Notes under the pieces: generated by a model
What the model saw: only the letters and a program-made list of their open reading frames with translations
Told to the model about the DNA's origin: nothing
Databases searched by the model: none
Shown: piece by piece, positions 21,665-25,221 of the stretch
Layout of the letters: each line of letters begins with the position of its first letter
Numbering within the stretch: the first letter of the stretch is position 1
Source: Aliiroseovarius sp. F20344
Lineage (GTDB): Bacteria; Pseudomonadota; Alphaproteobacteria; Rhodobacterales; Rhodobacteraceae
Reading direction: 5' to 3'
Assembly: GCF_023016155.1 (NCBI RefSeq)
Contig: NZ_JALKBG010000008.1
Span: 1,304,501 to 1,368,500, forward strand
DNA: 64,000 nt
Translations under genes and position numbers: made by a program

Positions 21665-22522
21665 ATGCGCCACACCCTTCCACTTGCCCCCCAGTTCTAT
21701 GTGACCGCTCCGCAGGAGTGTCCGTATCTGGATGGACGCCTTGAACGTAAGCTGTTCACCGCGCTGCAAGGGGAACATGCGGAAACCCTGAATGACACGC
21801 TGTCCAAGCAGGGCTTCCGACGTTCACAGAACGTGCTTTATCGCCCGTCCTGTGCGGAATGTTCGGCTTGTCTGTCTGCGCGCATTCGCGTTGCAGATTT
21901 CAAACCCAGCAAAAGCCAAAAGCGTACGGTAAAGCGCAACGCGATGCTTGAACGACGTGCTCGTGCGCCTTGGGCCAGTGAAGATCAATACGAGTTGTTC
22001 CGCCGCTATCTGGATGATCGGCACGCCGAAGGCGGCATGGCAGATATGGATGTGTTCGAATTTGCCGCGATGATCGAGGAAACTCCGATCAAAAGCCGCG
22101 TGATTGAATATGCAGAACGCGGACAAGGGCAAAAACCTGGCGATGACGCCACCGGTCCGCTGCGCGCGGTGTGCCTGACGGATGTGCTCGAAGACGGATT
22201 GTCTATGGTGTATTCGTTCTACGATCCGAACTGGCATCGCAAGTCCCTTGGCACCTACATGATCCTCGACCACATCGAGATCGCGCGCGAAGCTGGCCTG
22301 CCCTATGTCTATCTTGGCTATTGGGTACCGGGCAGCCCGAAGATGGATTACAAAGCCACGTTCTCGTCTATCGAGATCTACCGCGACAATCACTGGACCC
22401 CGCTCAATACGGACGAAGATTACTCGGCAGAGCTGCATCCCTTGTCCACGGATCCAATTGCGGAACAAGTGGCCGGCATCAACCTTCCAGACACCGCAAG
22501 CCGAGCACAGCGCGAAGGCTAA
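21665..22522 (+). CDS. bpt: Aspartate/glutamate leucyltransferase (Bpt; ATE family)
   Basis: Transfers an amino acid, usually Leu, from tRNA to N-terminal Asp or Glu of proteins, marking them for ClpS/ClpAP degradation. The 285 residues carry the N-terminal Cys cluster (P-S-C-A-E-C-S-A-C near residue 59-67), K-R-x-x-K-R-N near 81-94, and the conserved Y[18 protein letters not shown] near 185 and [17 protein letters not shown] near 215. Length and start agree with alphaproteobacterial homologues. Confidence 0.94.
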
Positions 22523-22672
22523 CCCGCCATATGGGACTCGGTTTGACAGCCAAATCTACCGTGATCATCAAAAAAACCACTCAGATTTCCATTAATTGCG
22601 CCAATCAGGCCACCAAACGATCTAAAATTACAAAAAATTAGCCTACGCGACATTTTATGCGCGCTTTCGCTG

Positions 22673-22699
22673 TTGACGCCCCCCATCACCGCTCATAAT
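22673..22699 (+). promoter_or_regulatory. Candidate promoter of the ilv leader
   Basis: TTGACG at 22673-22678 and CATAAT at 22694-22699 with a 15-base spacer, shorter than ideal. Initiation near 22706 would give a leader RNA of about 185 bases before ilvI, enough for the attenuator. Confidence 0.45.
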
Positions 22700-22763
22700 G
22701 TCCCCCGCACGTAATGTAGAAGCCTTCAAGGATATCCTTGGGCAAGAACTTGGGAAAACTGCA

Positions 22764-22811
22764 ATGAGCGGCGTCCTAGTGATTGTGAGAAATTGGCGCA
22801 TGGGCCGGTAA
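22764..22811 (+). CDS. ilv leader peptide (attenuation)
   Basis: A 15-codon open frame encoding M-S-G-V-L-V-I-V-R-N-W-R-M-G-R. Codons 4-8 are Val-Leu-Val-Ile-Val, an uninterrupted run of all three branched-chain amino acids, and the Leu codon is CTA, which I expect to be rare in this GC-rich genome. The frame ends 24 bases before the terminator hairpin at 22836-22862. A weak GGGA lies upstream of ATG. This is the expected layout of a leader peptide whose ribosome stalling senses branched-chain aminoacyl-tRNA. Confidence 0.85.
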   Translation: MSGVLVIVRNWRMGR

Positions 22812-22838
22812 CGGAACCATAATGGAACCCCATGCGCC
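22795..22838 (+). promoter_or_regulatory. Competing stem of the ilv attenuator
   Basis: GGCGCATGGG (22795-22804, in the last codons of the leader peptide) is exactly complementary to 22829-22838, whose last three bases are also the first three of the terminator stem. A ribosome stalled on the Val-Leu-Ile run leaves the first arm free, allowing this stem to form and weaken the terminator; a ribosome at the stop codon would cover it. Confidence 0.65.
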
Positions 22839-22862
22839 CCCGAGAAAATCGGGGGCTTTTTT
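22836..22862 (+). terminator. Attenuator terminator before ilvI
   Basis: 8-bp stem (22836-22843 with 22849-22856), 5-base loop, then six T at 22857-22862. It lies between the leader peptide and ilvI, so it acts as a conditional terminator rather than the end of bpt. Confidence 0.9.
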
Positions 22863-22892
22863 ATGAGAAGTGCACGTGGAACGGAGAAGAAG

Positions 22893-24647
22893 ATGACACG
22901 TCAAATGACCGGAGCGAAAATGGTGGTTCAAGCCCTGAAGGATCAGGGTGTGGACACAGTCTTTGGCTATCCCGGAGGCGCTGTCCTACCGATTTACGAC
23001 GAGATTTTTCAGCAAAATGACATTCGCCACATCTTGGTACGTCATGAACAAGGTGCCGTACACGCAGCCGAAGGCTATGCGCGTTCGACAGGTAAGCCGG
23101 GCGTTGTCCTTGTAACGTCGGGCCCTGGTGCCACCAACGCTGTGACCGGCTTGACCGATGCTCTTTTGGATTCCATTCCGCTGGTTGTTCTGACCGGTCA
23201 GGTTCCGACTTTCATGATCGGCACGGATGGCTTTCAGGAAGCGGATACCGTCGGCATCACCCGCCCCTGCACCAAGCATAACTGGCTTGTGAAAGAGACC
23301 GACAAGCTGTCAGACGTCATCCATCAGGCGTTCCATGTCGCGATCTCGGGCCGACCGGGGCCAACCCTGATCGACATCCCCAAAGATGTGCAGTTTGCGA
23401 CCGGCACCTACACCCCGCCAGCAAAGGTAGAAACCGGACATTATCAGCCGCAGATGCGTGGCGATATTAACGCGATCACCGAACTGGCCGAGCTGATGGA
23501 AACTGCAGAGCGACCGGTTTTCTATACGGGTGGTGGCGTGATCAACTCTGGCCCCGCTGCCAGCCAGCTTCTGCGCGAGCTTGTGGATGCCACAGGTTTC
23601 CCAATCACCTCGACCCTGATGGGTCTGGGTGCCTACCCTGCCTCGGGCGAACACTGGCTAGGCATGCTGGGCATGCACGGGCTCTATGAGGCCAACATGG
23701 CAATGCATGGCTGCGACCTGATGATCTGTGTTGGCGCGCGCTTTGACGACCGGATCACCGGTCGCGTGGATGCGTTCAGCCCGAACTCGAAGAAAGCCCA
23801 TATCGATATTGATCCAAGCTCGGTCAACAAGGTGATTCATGTGGATCTGCCGATCATCGGCGATGTTGGACACGTTTTGGAAGACCTGCTGAAGGTTTGG
23901 AAGGCCCGCGGCCGTAAGACCAACAAAGACGGTCTGAAAGGTTGGACAGCGCAAATCGCGGATTGGAAAGAGCGTCGTTGCCTGAGCTACAACAACACTG
24001 ACAACGTCATTCAGCCGCAACATGCGCTGGAACGTCTTGAGGCGCTGACCAAAGACAAAGACCGCTATGTGGCGACAGAAGTTGGACAACACCAGATGTG
24101 GGCTGCCCAGTTCATGGGCTTTGAAGATCCCAATCGCTGGCTTACGTCAGGTGGTCTGGGCACAATGGGCTATGGCCTGCCCGCCTCGCTGGGGGCGCAA
24201 ATCGCGCATCCCGACGCCTGCGTGATCAACGTGGCGGGCGATGCGTCCTGGCTGATGAACATGCAGGAAATGGGAACGGCCGTTCAGTTCCGCGCGCCGA
24301 TCAAACAGTTCATTCTGAACAATGAACGTCTGGGTATGGTGCGACAGTGGCAGGAACTTCTGCATGGCGAGCGCTATTCGCACAGCTGGTCGGAAAGCCT
24401 GCCGGACTTCGTGAAGCTGGCCGAAGCATTCGGGTGCAAAGGTCGTCAAGTGTCAGATCCCGCCGAGCTGGATGACGCCATTCAGGAAATGCTCGACTAT
24501 GACGGGCCGTTCATCCTGGATGTTCTGGTCGAAAAACATGCAAACTGCTTCCCGATGATCCCCTCGGGCGCACCGCATAATGAAATGCTCATGGGCGAAG
24601 CTGAAACGCAGGGCGTTATCGGTTCTGCCGGCGCAACTTTGGTTTAA
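22893..24647 (+). CDS. ilvI: Acetolactate synthase large subunit
   Basis: Thiamine-diphosphate enzyme that makes acetolactate or acetohydroxybutyrate, the first common step of Val, Leu and Ile synthesis. The 584-residue protein has the catalytic Glu at 52 (R-H-E-Q-G-A), the G-Y-P-G-G-A-V-L-P motif near 25, the FAD-binding middle domain and the TPP motif [11 protein letters not shown] near 450. ATG 22893 has GGAG 8 bases upstream; an ATG 30 bases earlier directly abuts the terminator T-tract. Controlled by the upstream attenuator and followed by the small subunit. Confidence 0.97.
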
Positions 24648-24660
24648 GGAGGGTCTCTAA

Positions 24661-25221
24661 ATGTCTGCACTCAAGATCAAAAAAGGCTCTTCCAGCAAGT
24701 CCGCTTATAACCTGCGCGACCCGAATTTGGACGTGATTGAAAGCCATACGCTTACCTGTCTGGTGGACAACGAAGCGGGTGTTTTGGCACGTGTGATCGG
24801 GTTGTTCGCAGGCCGTGGCTATAACATCGAAAGCCTGACCGTGGCCGAGGTTGATCACGAAGGTCACCTGTCGCGCATCACCATCGTGACCACCGGCACC
24901 CCTGCGGTGATCGAACAGATCAAAGCCCAGTTGGGCCGCATCGTGCCCGTGCACGAAGTTCATGACCTGACCGTTGAAGGTCAGTCCGTCGAACGGGAAC
25001 TGGCGCTATTCAAGGTGGAAGGCACCGGCGACAAACGGGTCGAGGCACTGCGCCTTGCGGATATCTTCCGCGCCAATGTGGTGGATTCAACGCTGGACAG
25101 CTTTGTGTTTGAGATCACCGGCACGACCGAAAAGATCGACGCGTTTGCTGACCTGATGCGGCCTCTTGGCCTGATCGAAGTGGCCCGCACCGGCGTCGCG
25201 GCCTTGTCTCGCGGCATCTAA
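24661..25221 (+). CDS. ilvH: Acetolactate synthase small (regulatory) subunit
   Basis: Regulatory partner of IlvI, carrying the valine feedback site in an N-terminal ACT domain (L-T-C-L-V-D-N-E-A-G-V-L-A-R-V-I-G-L-F-A-G-R-G-Y-N-I-E-S-L near residues 36-62) and a C-terminal ACT-like domain ending I-E-V-A-R-T-G-x-x-A-L-S-R-G. Length 186. Starts 13 bases after ilvI with AAGGAGG, so the pair is one operon; a strong terminator follows. Confidence 0.96.
   Translation: MSALKIKKGSSSKSAYNLRDPNLDVIESHTLTCLVDNEAGVLARVIGLFAGRGYNIESLTVAEVDHEGHLSRITIVTTGTPAVIEQIKAQLGRIVPVHEVHDLTVEGQSVERELALFKVEGTGDKRVEALRLADIFRANVVDSTLDSFVFEITGTTEKIDAFADLMRPLGLIEVARTGVAALSRGI

Follow-up and report, generated by a model that had tools for sequence, protein, structure and literature searches.

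We consider it very probable that the gap before ilvI in the 64-kb stretch of DNA analysed here (the window) carries a ribosome-mediated transcription attenuator of ilvIH, and that this element is a member of a broader RNA family in alphaproteobacteria that is found also before MFS genes of the Bcr/CflA type. This gives a definite RNA element, with its parts and range, to a regulator that is present in the majority of the genomes sampled from the window's family, the Rhodobacteraceae, and is absent from Rfam; what was unexpected is that it also stands ahead of a gene for an efflux-type transporter, both on plasmids and in ten further families.

Results

A gap of 370 nt, holding a probable promoter, a leader frame, a stem and a terminator, separates ilvI from the arginyltransferase gene (21665-22522), whose identity was confirmed by a profile scan. 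Both ilvI (22893..24647, forward strand), for the large subunit of acetolactate synthase, and ilvH (24661..25221, forward strand), for the small subunit, scored above the profile cut-offs (NF006581 and TIGR00118, and NF008864 and TIGR00119, respectively), which confirms the assignment to ilvIH made in the first-pass annotation. The ilvI start codon was picked from the GGAG just 5' of it, and the nearest ilvI relatives among the matches listed come from named Aliiroseovarius, with 95-96% identity. The predicted promoter, read by eye as TTGACG-15 nt-CATAAT (22673..22699, forward strand), was not listed by a consensus promoter scan with a spacer limit of 16-18 nt, which returned one chance-level match only; a GTTGACGCC...CATAATGTC-like pattern is seen again in many of its aligned relatives.

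The remaining parts also lie on the forward strand. By direct reading, the leader frame (22764..22811) encodes MSGVLVIVRNWRMGR in 15 codons, from the ATG at 22764 to the TAA at 22809-22811, and its codons 4-8 (22773..22787) form the regulatory run Val-Leu-Val-Ile-Val, which is also supported by conservation. The 5' arm of the antiterminator stem, GGCGCATGGG (22795..22804), corresponds to the leader codons W-R-M-G and is paired in 94.2% of cells over 71 distinct sequences; it is followed by an apical hairpin, CCG-GUAA-CGG (22805..22814), whose loop holds the leader stop codon and whose pairs have a probability of about 0.95 if the arm is left free. The 3' arm, CCCATGCGCC (22829..22838), makes 10 bp with the 5' arm, and its last three bases (22836-22838) are common to the intrinsic terminator (22836..22862), identified by a terminator scan and by alignment, in which an 8-bp hairpin, GCCCCCGA-GAAAA-TCGGGGGC (22836-22856), precedes a T6 run (22857-22862). 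The coordinates previously proposed for the 15-codon frame with its Val-Leu-Val-Ile-Val run before a terminator, and for a 10-bp stem built from the last leader codons with a three-base overlap, thus proved right on direct reading. The two strands of 22000-23500 contain six terminator-like sites where 1.6 were expected, and this terminator is the longest of them; the segment 22740-22892 folds better than its shuffles (z -2.49), with 2 of 200 shuffles as good.

Between the promoter and the leader there is a further hairpin, CAAGGATATCCTTG (22717-22740), and the AGAAGCC just 5' of it can pair with the 3' end of the terminator, GGCUUU, a pairing that wins in the fold without a ribosome once the whole 5' region is included. 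The AAGCC is kept in L005-L007 and not in L056, and the pairing may be a genus-level extra antiterminator or may be due to chance.

The first-pass annotation had predicted that the leader frame, the codon run, both stems and the T-run would be conserved in relatives. When 80 ilvI loci, the best 80 of at least 590 pattern matches and mostly from named Rhodobacterales genera or Rhodobacteraceae, were compared together with the window, 73 of these 81 loci had kept leader frame, stem and terminator; one further copy (L036) is cut by a contig end with its remaining part kept, and the element is absent from seven, namely six of Paracoccus (L020, L022, L033, L034, L049 and L062) and one of Nereida (L080), in which no frame with more than three Val/Ile/Leu per six residues was present within 300 nt 5' of ilvI. 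The anatomy and this conservation together identify a conserved leader-peptide attenuator of ilvIH, and the earlier reading is therefore upheld by conservation as well as by gene identity. Among the 73 leaders, positions 4-8 of the run are Val/Ile/Leu in fractions of 0.99, 0.99, 0.97, 0.95 and 0.88, the flanking positions in only 0.01-0.12, with varied residues, and the run lies at a near-constant distance from the 5' arm of the stem. The C-terminus is RMGR followed by the stop codon in 68 of the 73 and another ending in 5, and a Shine-Dalgarno-like motif, under a loose rule, precedes 55 of the 61 leaders checked.

Val codons in the run are GTA in 98 of 187 cases, versus 4.5% in ilvI. The use of rare run codons as proof of amino-acid sensing was nevertheless set aside, because the adjacent Gly codon is equally A-biased (GGA in 32 of 45) and the enrichment may reflect a constraint on base composition; the choice of sensitive synonymous codons is already known, according to the accessible part of PMC1183508. 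As a separate observation, GGA stands at the third codon before the arm codon in 32 of 73 relatives, often after GTA; the AGGA so formed, some 9 nt ahead of the in-frame ATG within RMGR, could be an internal Shine-Dalgarno-like pause site in ilvI leaders. The window itself has GTG AGA at these two codons.

The stem, apical hairpin and shortened terminator, taken as one structure, had 93.9% of cells paired over the 71 distinct sequences, and each of the five structure measures beat 500 of 500 shuffles, a result that related sequences can also give without structure. Sliding the partners by one column lowered pairing to 41-45%. Sliding by two columns gave 21 cells with two-sided change versus 20 in the true register, and because slid versions match or exceed the true one here and in the mixed alignment described below (9 versus 7), such counts alone are not proof of structure. 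The compensatory change that had been predicted was found in the stop-codon hairpin and in the terminator, which is paired in 95.1% of cells and has two-sided change in four of eight pairs, but is scarce in the main stem (two of ten pairs, both in sequence L035) because that stem is nearly invariant. Both of its arms, including the non-coding 3' arm, hardly vary, and either pairing retains the shared bases. The outermost stem pair is present in 38 of the 71 distinct sequences, so the stem overlaps the terminator by three bases in these 38 and by two in almost all of the rest; a short overlap of 2-3 bases is, as judged from the alignment, a trait of the whole class.

The stop-codon hairpin, which was absent from the first-pass annotation, is mostly CCG-GUAA-CGG or CCG-GUGA-CGG, which puts the leader stop codon in a loop that we take to be GNRA-like. 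Its first pair is seen as C-G, U-G, U-A, A-U and G-C, with two-sided changes in four sequences. We also compared 31 ilvI-linked copies of greater divergence: many have the hairpin restored with different pairs (e.g., L211, L225, L226 and L234), several form none, and only 9 of the 31 have a better fold than 95% of simple shuffles.

A covariance model (R1) built from the 73 ilvI copies only was run on 387 alphaproteobacterial genomes, where six listed genomes of the window's own family matched before ilvI. The 13 best matches outside this family, from 13 of 381 genomes in 10 families, had E-values of 1.4e-14 to 3.8e-6; twelve lie between 1.4e-14 and 2.8e-7, and the thirteenth (L106, 3.8e-6) rests on its MFS context and not on its score, because it scores no better than the fourteenth match (L107 in G151, 4.4e-6), a plain chance terminator. 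Each of the 13 loci was read: an MFS transporter gene lies 14-50 nt downstream in all 13, and ilvI in none. Their MFS proteins share 49-57% identity with the first of them, and three of four scanned pass the TIGR00710 (Bcr/CflA efflux) cut-off, the fourth reaching 195.7 against 200.9 bits. In the same 13 genomes there was no copy 5' of ilvI and no match above 19 bits near ilvI. Since the two forms share arms, stop-codon hairpin and terminator, the MFS-linked and ilvI-linked elements are, on this comparison of sequences, one RNA family.

A combined model (R2), trained on the 13 outside loci and others, which it matches by construction, found 19 copies at E<=6e-16 in the same 387 genomes, the next match being at 3e-7. 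In a mixed alignment of 32 rows, 88.0% of cells were paired; three of five measures exceeded all shuffles, the other two were reached by 10 and 5 of 500, and one slid version had 9 two-sided pairs versus 7. The element was present in 9 of 14 genomes of the order of G128, and the seven newly fetched loci are all before an MFS gene. Several weaker candidates were rejected. Beyond the 19 true copies, the weak matches (R1 at E<=0.01 in 98 of 387 genomes; R2 at E<=1e-4 in 65 of 387) are background by score, some having been inspected, and two weaker matches in the window's own genome (L086 and L087) had no ilvI, no MFS match and no run of branched-chain amino acid (BCAA) codons. Among 348 genomes drawn from the phylum, the best match outside the window's family (5.2e-9) is a plain terminator; this hit, in G877, and another in G960 (1.5e-8), both outside the class, have no recognisable leader, and a further match is in G961 (8.4e-8).

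Of the 296 genomes surveyed in the window's family, R2 finds a match in 258 at E<=1e-6, a count that includes at least one chance terminator (G469) and two MFS forms (G387 and G390). We read 66 family loci, 26 among the best matches and 40 chosen mainly as weak or second matches: 61 stand before ilvI, two before an MFS gene and three before neither. At least three consecutive Val/Ile/Leu precede the arm in 26 of the 26 best and 29 of the 35 other ilvI loci (55 of 61), and the six without a clear run are all weak or second matches. There is no clean score gap in the family, with ilvI copies down to 5e-7 and the three loci of neither gene at 2.5-2.6e-8. In G410, two ilvI genes each have their own leader element (L203 and L236), through either real duplication or a mixed assembly.

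The MFS form occurs in five genomes of the family. A relative of the MFS protein was found in 55 of 61 family genomes, and none in the window's own genome at that threshold; the element precedes only three of the 30 best family MFS loci (G387, G390 and G394), and is therefore an exception at this gene within the family. Mutual exclusion of the two forms was considered, as G387, G390 and G394 have only the MFS form and G391 and G417 only the ilvI form, and was rejected because G463 and G649, with contamination of 1% and 2%, carry both. The ilvI genes of G387, G390 and G394 follow different leaders (L148, L149 and L159), which the model does not recognise; L149, L159 and L148 hold short BCAA-containing frames, MNGILVLCWRGDRAA, ...RAILVVGSAPGTA and MRHNVVLI, each closed by a stop codon, with different terminators, and in these three genomes the attenuator of ilvIH may have been exchanged for another or may have evolved afresh. 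Relatives of the MFS gene are also on 26 plasmid records, and the element was present in three of seven regions fetched, on conjugative plasmids of Roseobacter denitrificans (pTB1), Phaeobacter piscinae and Leisingera caerulea, whose leaders are MTVKFVVVVSKRRMVR, MSVKFVVVVSRRCMVR and MTFNFVVVVSKRCMVR; a DNA search gave a second record for each of the Roseobacter denitrificans and Phaeobacter piscinae plasmids. In the Leisingera caerulea plasmid (L250), the MFS gene is near a gene annotated as of the chloramphenicol phosphotransferase family and a GNAT acetyltransferase gene.

In the MFS-linked leaders the run is mainly Val and shorter: at least three consecutive Val/Ile/Leu are present in 18 of 28 versus 70 of 71 ilvI leaders, and at least five in 4 of 28 versus 56 of 71. 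The 28 are not independent, as seven of these loci come from a single order and three from related plasmids, and the ilvI frames were partly chosen by such runs. The residue just before the arm codon is Arg in 23 of 28 MFS leaders and most often Trp (31 of 73) in ilvI leaders, and the run is nearly lost in some MFS copies (L101, L106 and L118). The neighbourhood of the MFS gene, scanned for pointers to its substrate (20 frames, loci L271-L275), contained no partner common to the loci and none plainly related to BCAA.

Discussion

From this anatomy we infer an order of events, a ribosome reach and a response to starvation for the ilvIH attenuator. With charged Val, Leu and Ile tRNAs ample, the leading ribosome would reach the stop codon at 22809 and hide the 5' arm (22795-22804), leaving the 3' arm free, so that the terminator (22836-22856) would form and transcription would end before ilvI. 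A ribosome covers about 12-15 nt downstream, and if one of the three tRNAs were scarce, it would halt on codons 4-8 with the 5' arm open; the stem (22795-22838) would then be made before the terminator is complete and would hold three bases of its base, leaving of it a hairpin of 5 bp at a distance from the T-run, and RNA polymerase is proposed to read on.

The folding model gives -16.9 kcal/mol for the terminator, -6.9 without the three shared bases and -23.0 for the antiterminator alone. In equilibrium folding with a ribosome at the stop codon, the seven GC pairs of the terminator are at probability 1.0; with no ribosome and the whole 5' region, the antiterminator takes the shared bases (0.93-1.0). 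With a ribosome held on the Val/Leu/Ile run, the stem is otherwise formed and the three basal pairs of the terminator still stand at 0.77-1.0, since a trimmed stem leaves room for the two hairpins next to each other. The doubt raised in the first-pass annotation about how strictly the two stems exclude each other therefore stands, and exclusion must be kinetic or rest on effects outside the model; kinetic precedence of the stem made first is the likely explanation.

The same folds would fit an upstream stem that is no antiterminator at all, with both hairpins forming and the leader tuning the terminator through ribosome occupancy or the coupling of transcription and translation, and the overlap of merely 2-3 bases, with the outermost stem pair in 38 of 71 distinct sequences, points the same way. 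We consider this unlikely, given near-invariant arms on both sides, the non-coding one included, shared bases kept in both pairings, a terminator that loses 10 kcal/mol without them, and an antiterminator that wins them when no ribosome is present. That the conserved arrangement is a short frame which by chance precedes the ordinary terminator of an upstream transcript has practically no probability left and is already refuted by conservation. Short frames abound, with 555 counted over both strands of the 64-kb window, but two have five consecutive Val/Ile/Leu, five have a terminator within 70 nt, and the ilvI leader is the sole one with both features, its frame and codon run being conserved in 73 of 81 loci.

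What the leader senses is a separate matter. It might mainly respond to a general slowing of translation, as by ribosome-binding drugs, with the branched-chain codons as a convenient slow stretch, and this would explain how one element serves also a pump-type gene: the MFS-linked copies keep the RNA fold with a looser codon run, and the protein downstream passes the Bcr/CflA efflux cut-off in four of five scanned. For ilvIH this is nonetheless quite improbable, since its run has all three branched-chain residues over five positions, matching the products of the pathway. For the MFS form, the leader sequences allow a sensor of Val supply, a sensor of general translation slowing, or decay.

Regarding origin, parsimony on a thin sample points to ilvIH as the later host, since the MFS form is spread across ten other families. 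It is possible, though we put it forward only tentatively and hold it to be rather doubtful, that one attenuator cassette of promoter, Val-rich frame, stop-codon hairpin and terminator passed between a Bcr/CflA efflux-type gene and ilvIH in the alphaproteobacteria, being older or wider at the pump, where it would sense slowed translation, carried by conjugative plasmids and, within the window's family, recruited by ilvIH in the main clade. If so, ribosome-directed compounds or valine shortage would switch on efflux, and an amino-acid attenuator and a pump attenuator would have one origin.

At gathering score, Rfam release 15 (4227 models) reported only a tRNA elsewhere in the window and none of eight loci of both forms, and it gave no match to 22600-22900 at E<=1. 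We recognised no account of an attenuator before a Bcr/CflA gene or of this ilvIH leader in Rhodobacterales in the literature searched, which is weak evidence that none exists, as subscription papers and supplements lay mostly outside the search; the plasmid copies and the stop-codon hairpin were likewise found neither there, with queries that did not name the hairpin, nor in Rfam. The wider family with its link to a Bcr/CflA-type gene thus appears to be new. BCAA attenuation of acetolactate synthase genes, by contrast, is old knowledge, in alphaproteobacteria too. To judge by the accessible parts of these articles, attenuation of Caulobacter crescentus ilvBN/ilvIH is described in PMC4117421 (citing Tarleton et al. 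1994), and Vitreschak et al. 2004 is cited for an ilvB leader peptide in PMC1273637 and for a cis-regulatory element of Sinorhizobium meliloti ilvIH in PMC2573895, so that such attenuation is not unusual outside the enterobacteria.

By description, the leader of Caulobacter resembles that of the window in its tandem Ile and Val codons before alphaproteobacterial acetolactate synthase genes (PMC4117421, accessible part). The E. coli ilvGMEDA, ilvBN and leuABCD attenuators likewise combine, in the accessible part of PMC6123439, a BCAA-rich leader and a terminator with a decision by ribosome position; their leaders have 32, 32 and 28 amino acids versus 15 codons in the window, whose stem-terminator overlap of only 2-3 bases is also unlike theirs. 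The uORFC-8-2 motif of Rhodobacterales cysS, as described in the accessible part of PMC8632094, is a leader-peptide attenuator of the same order, and set against the window's element by description, it differs in its cysteine codons and in the gene, cysS, that it precedes.
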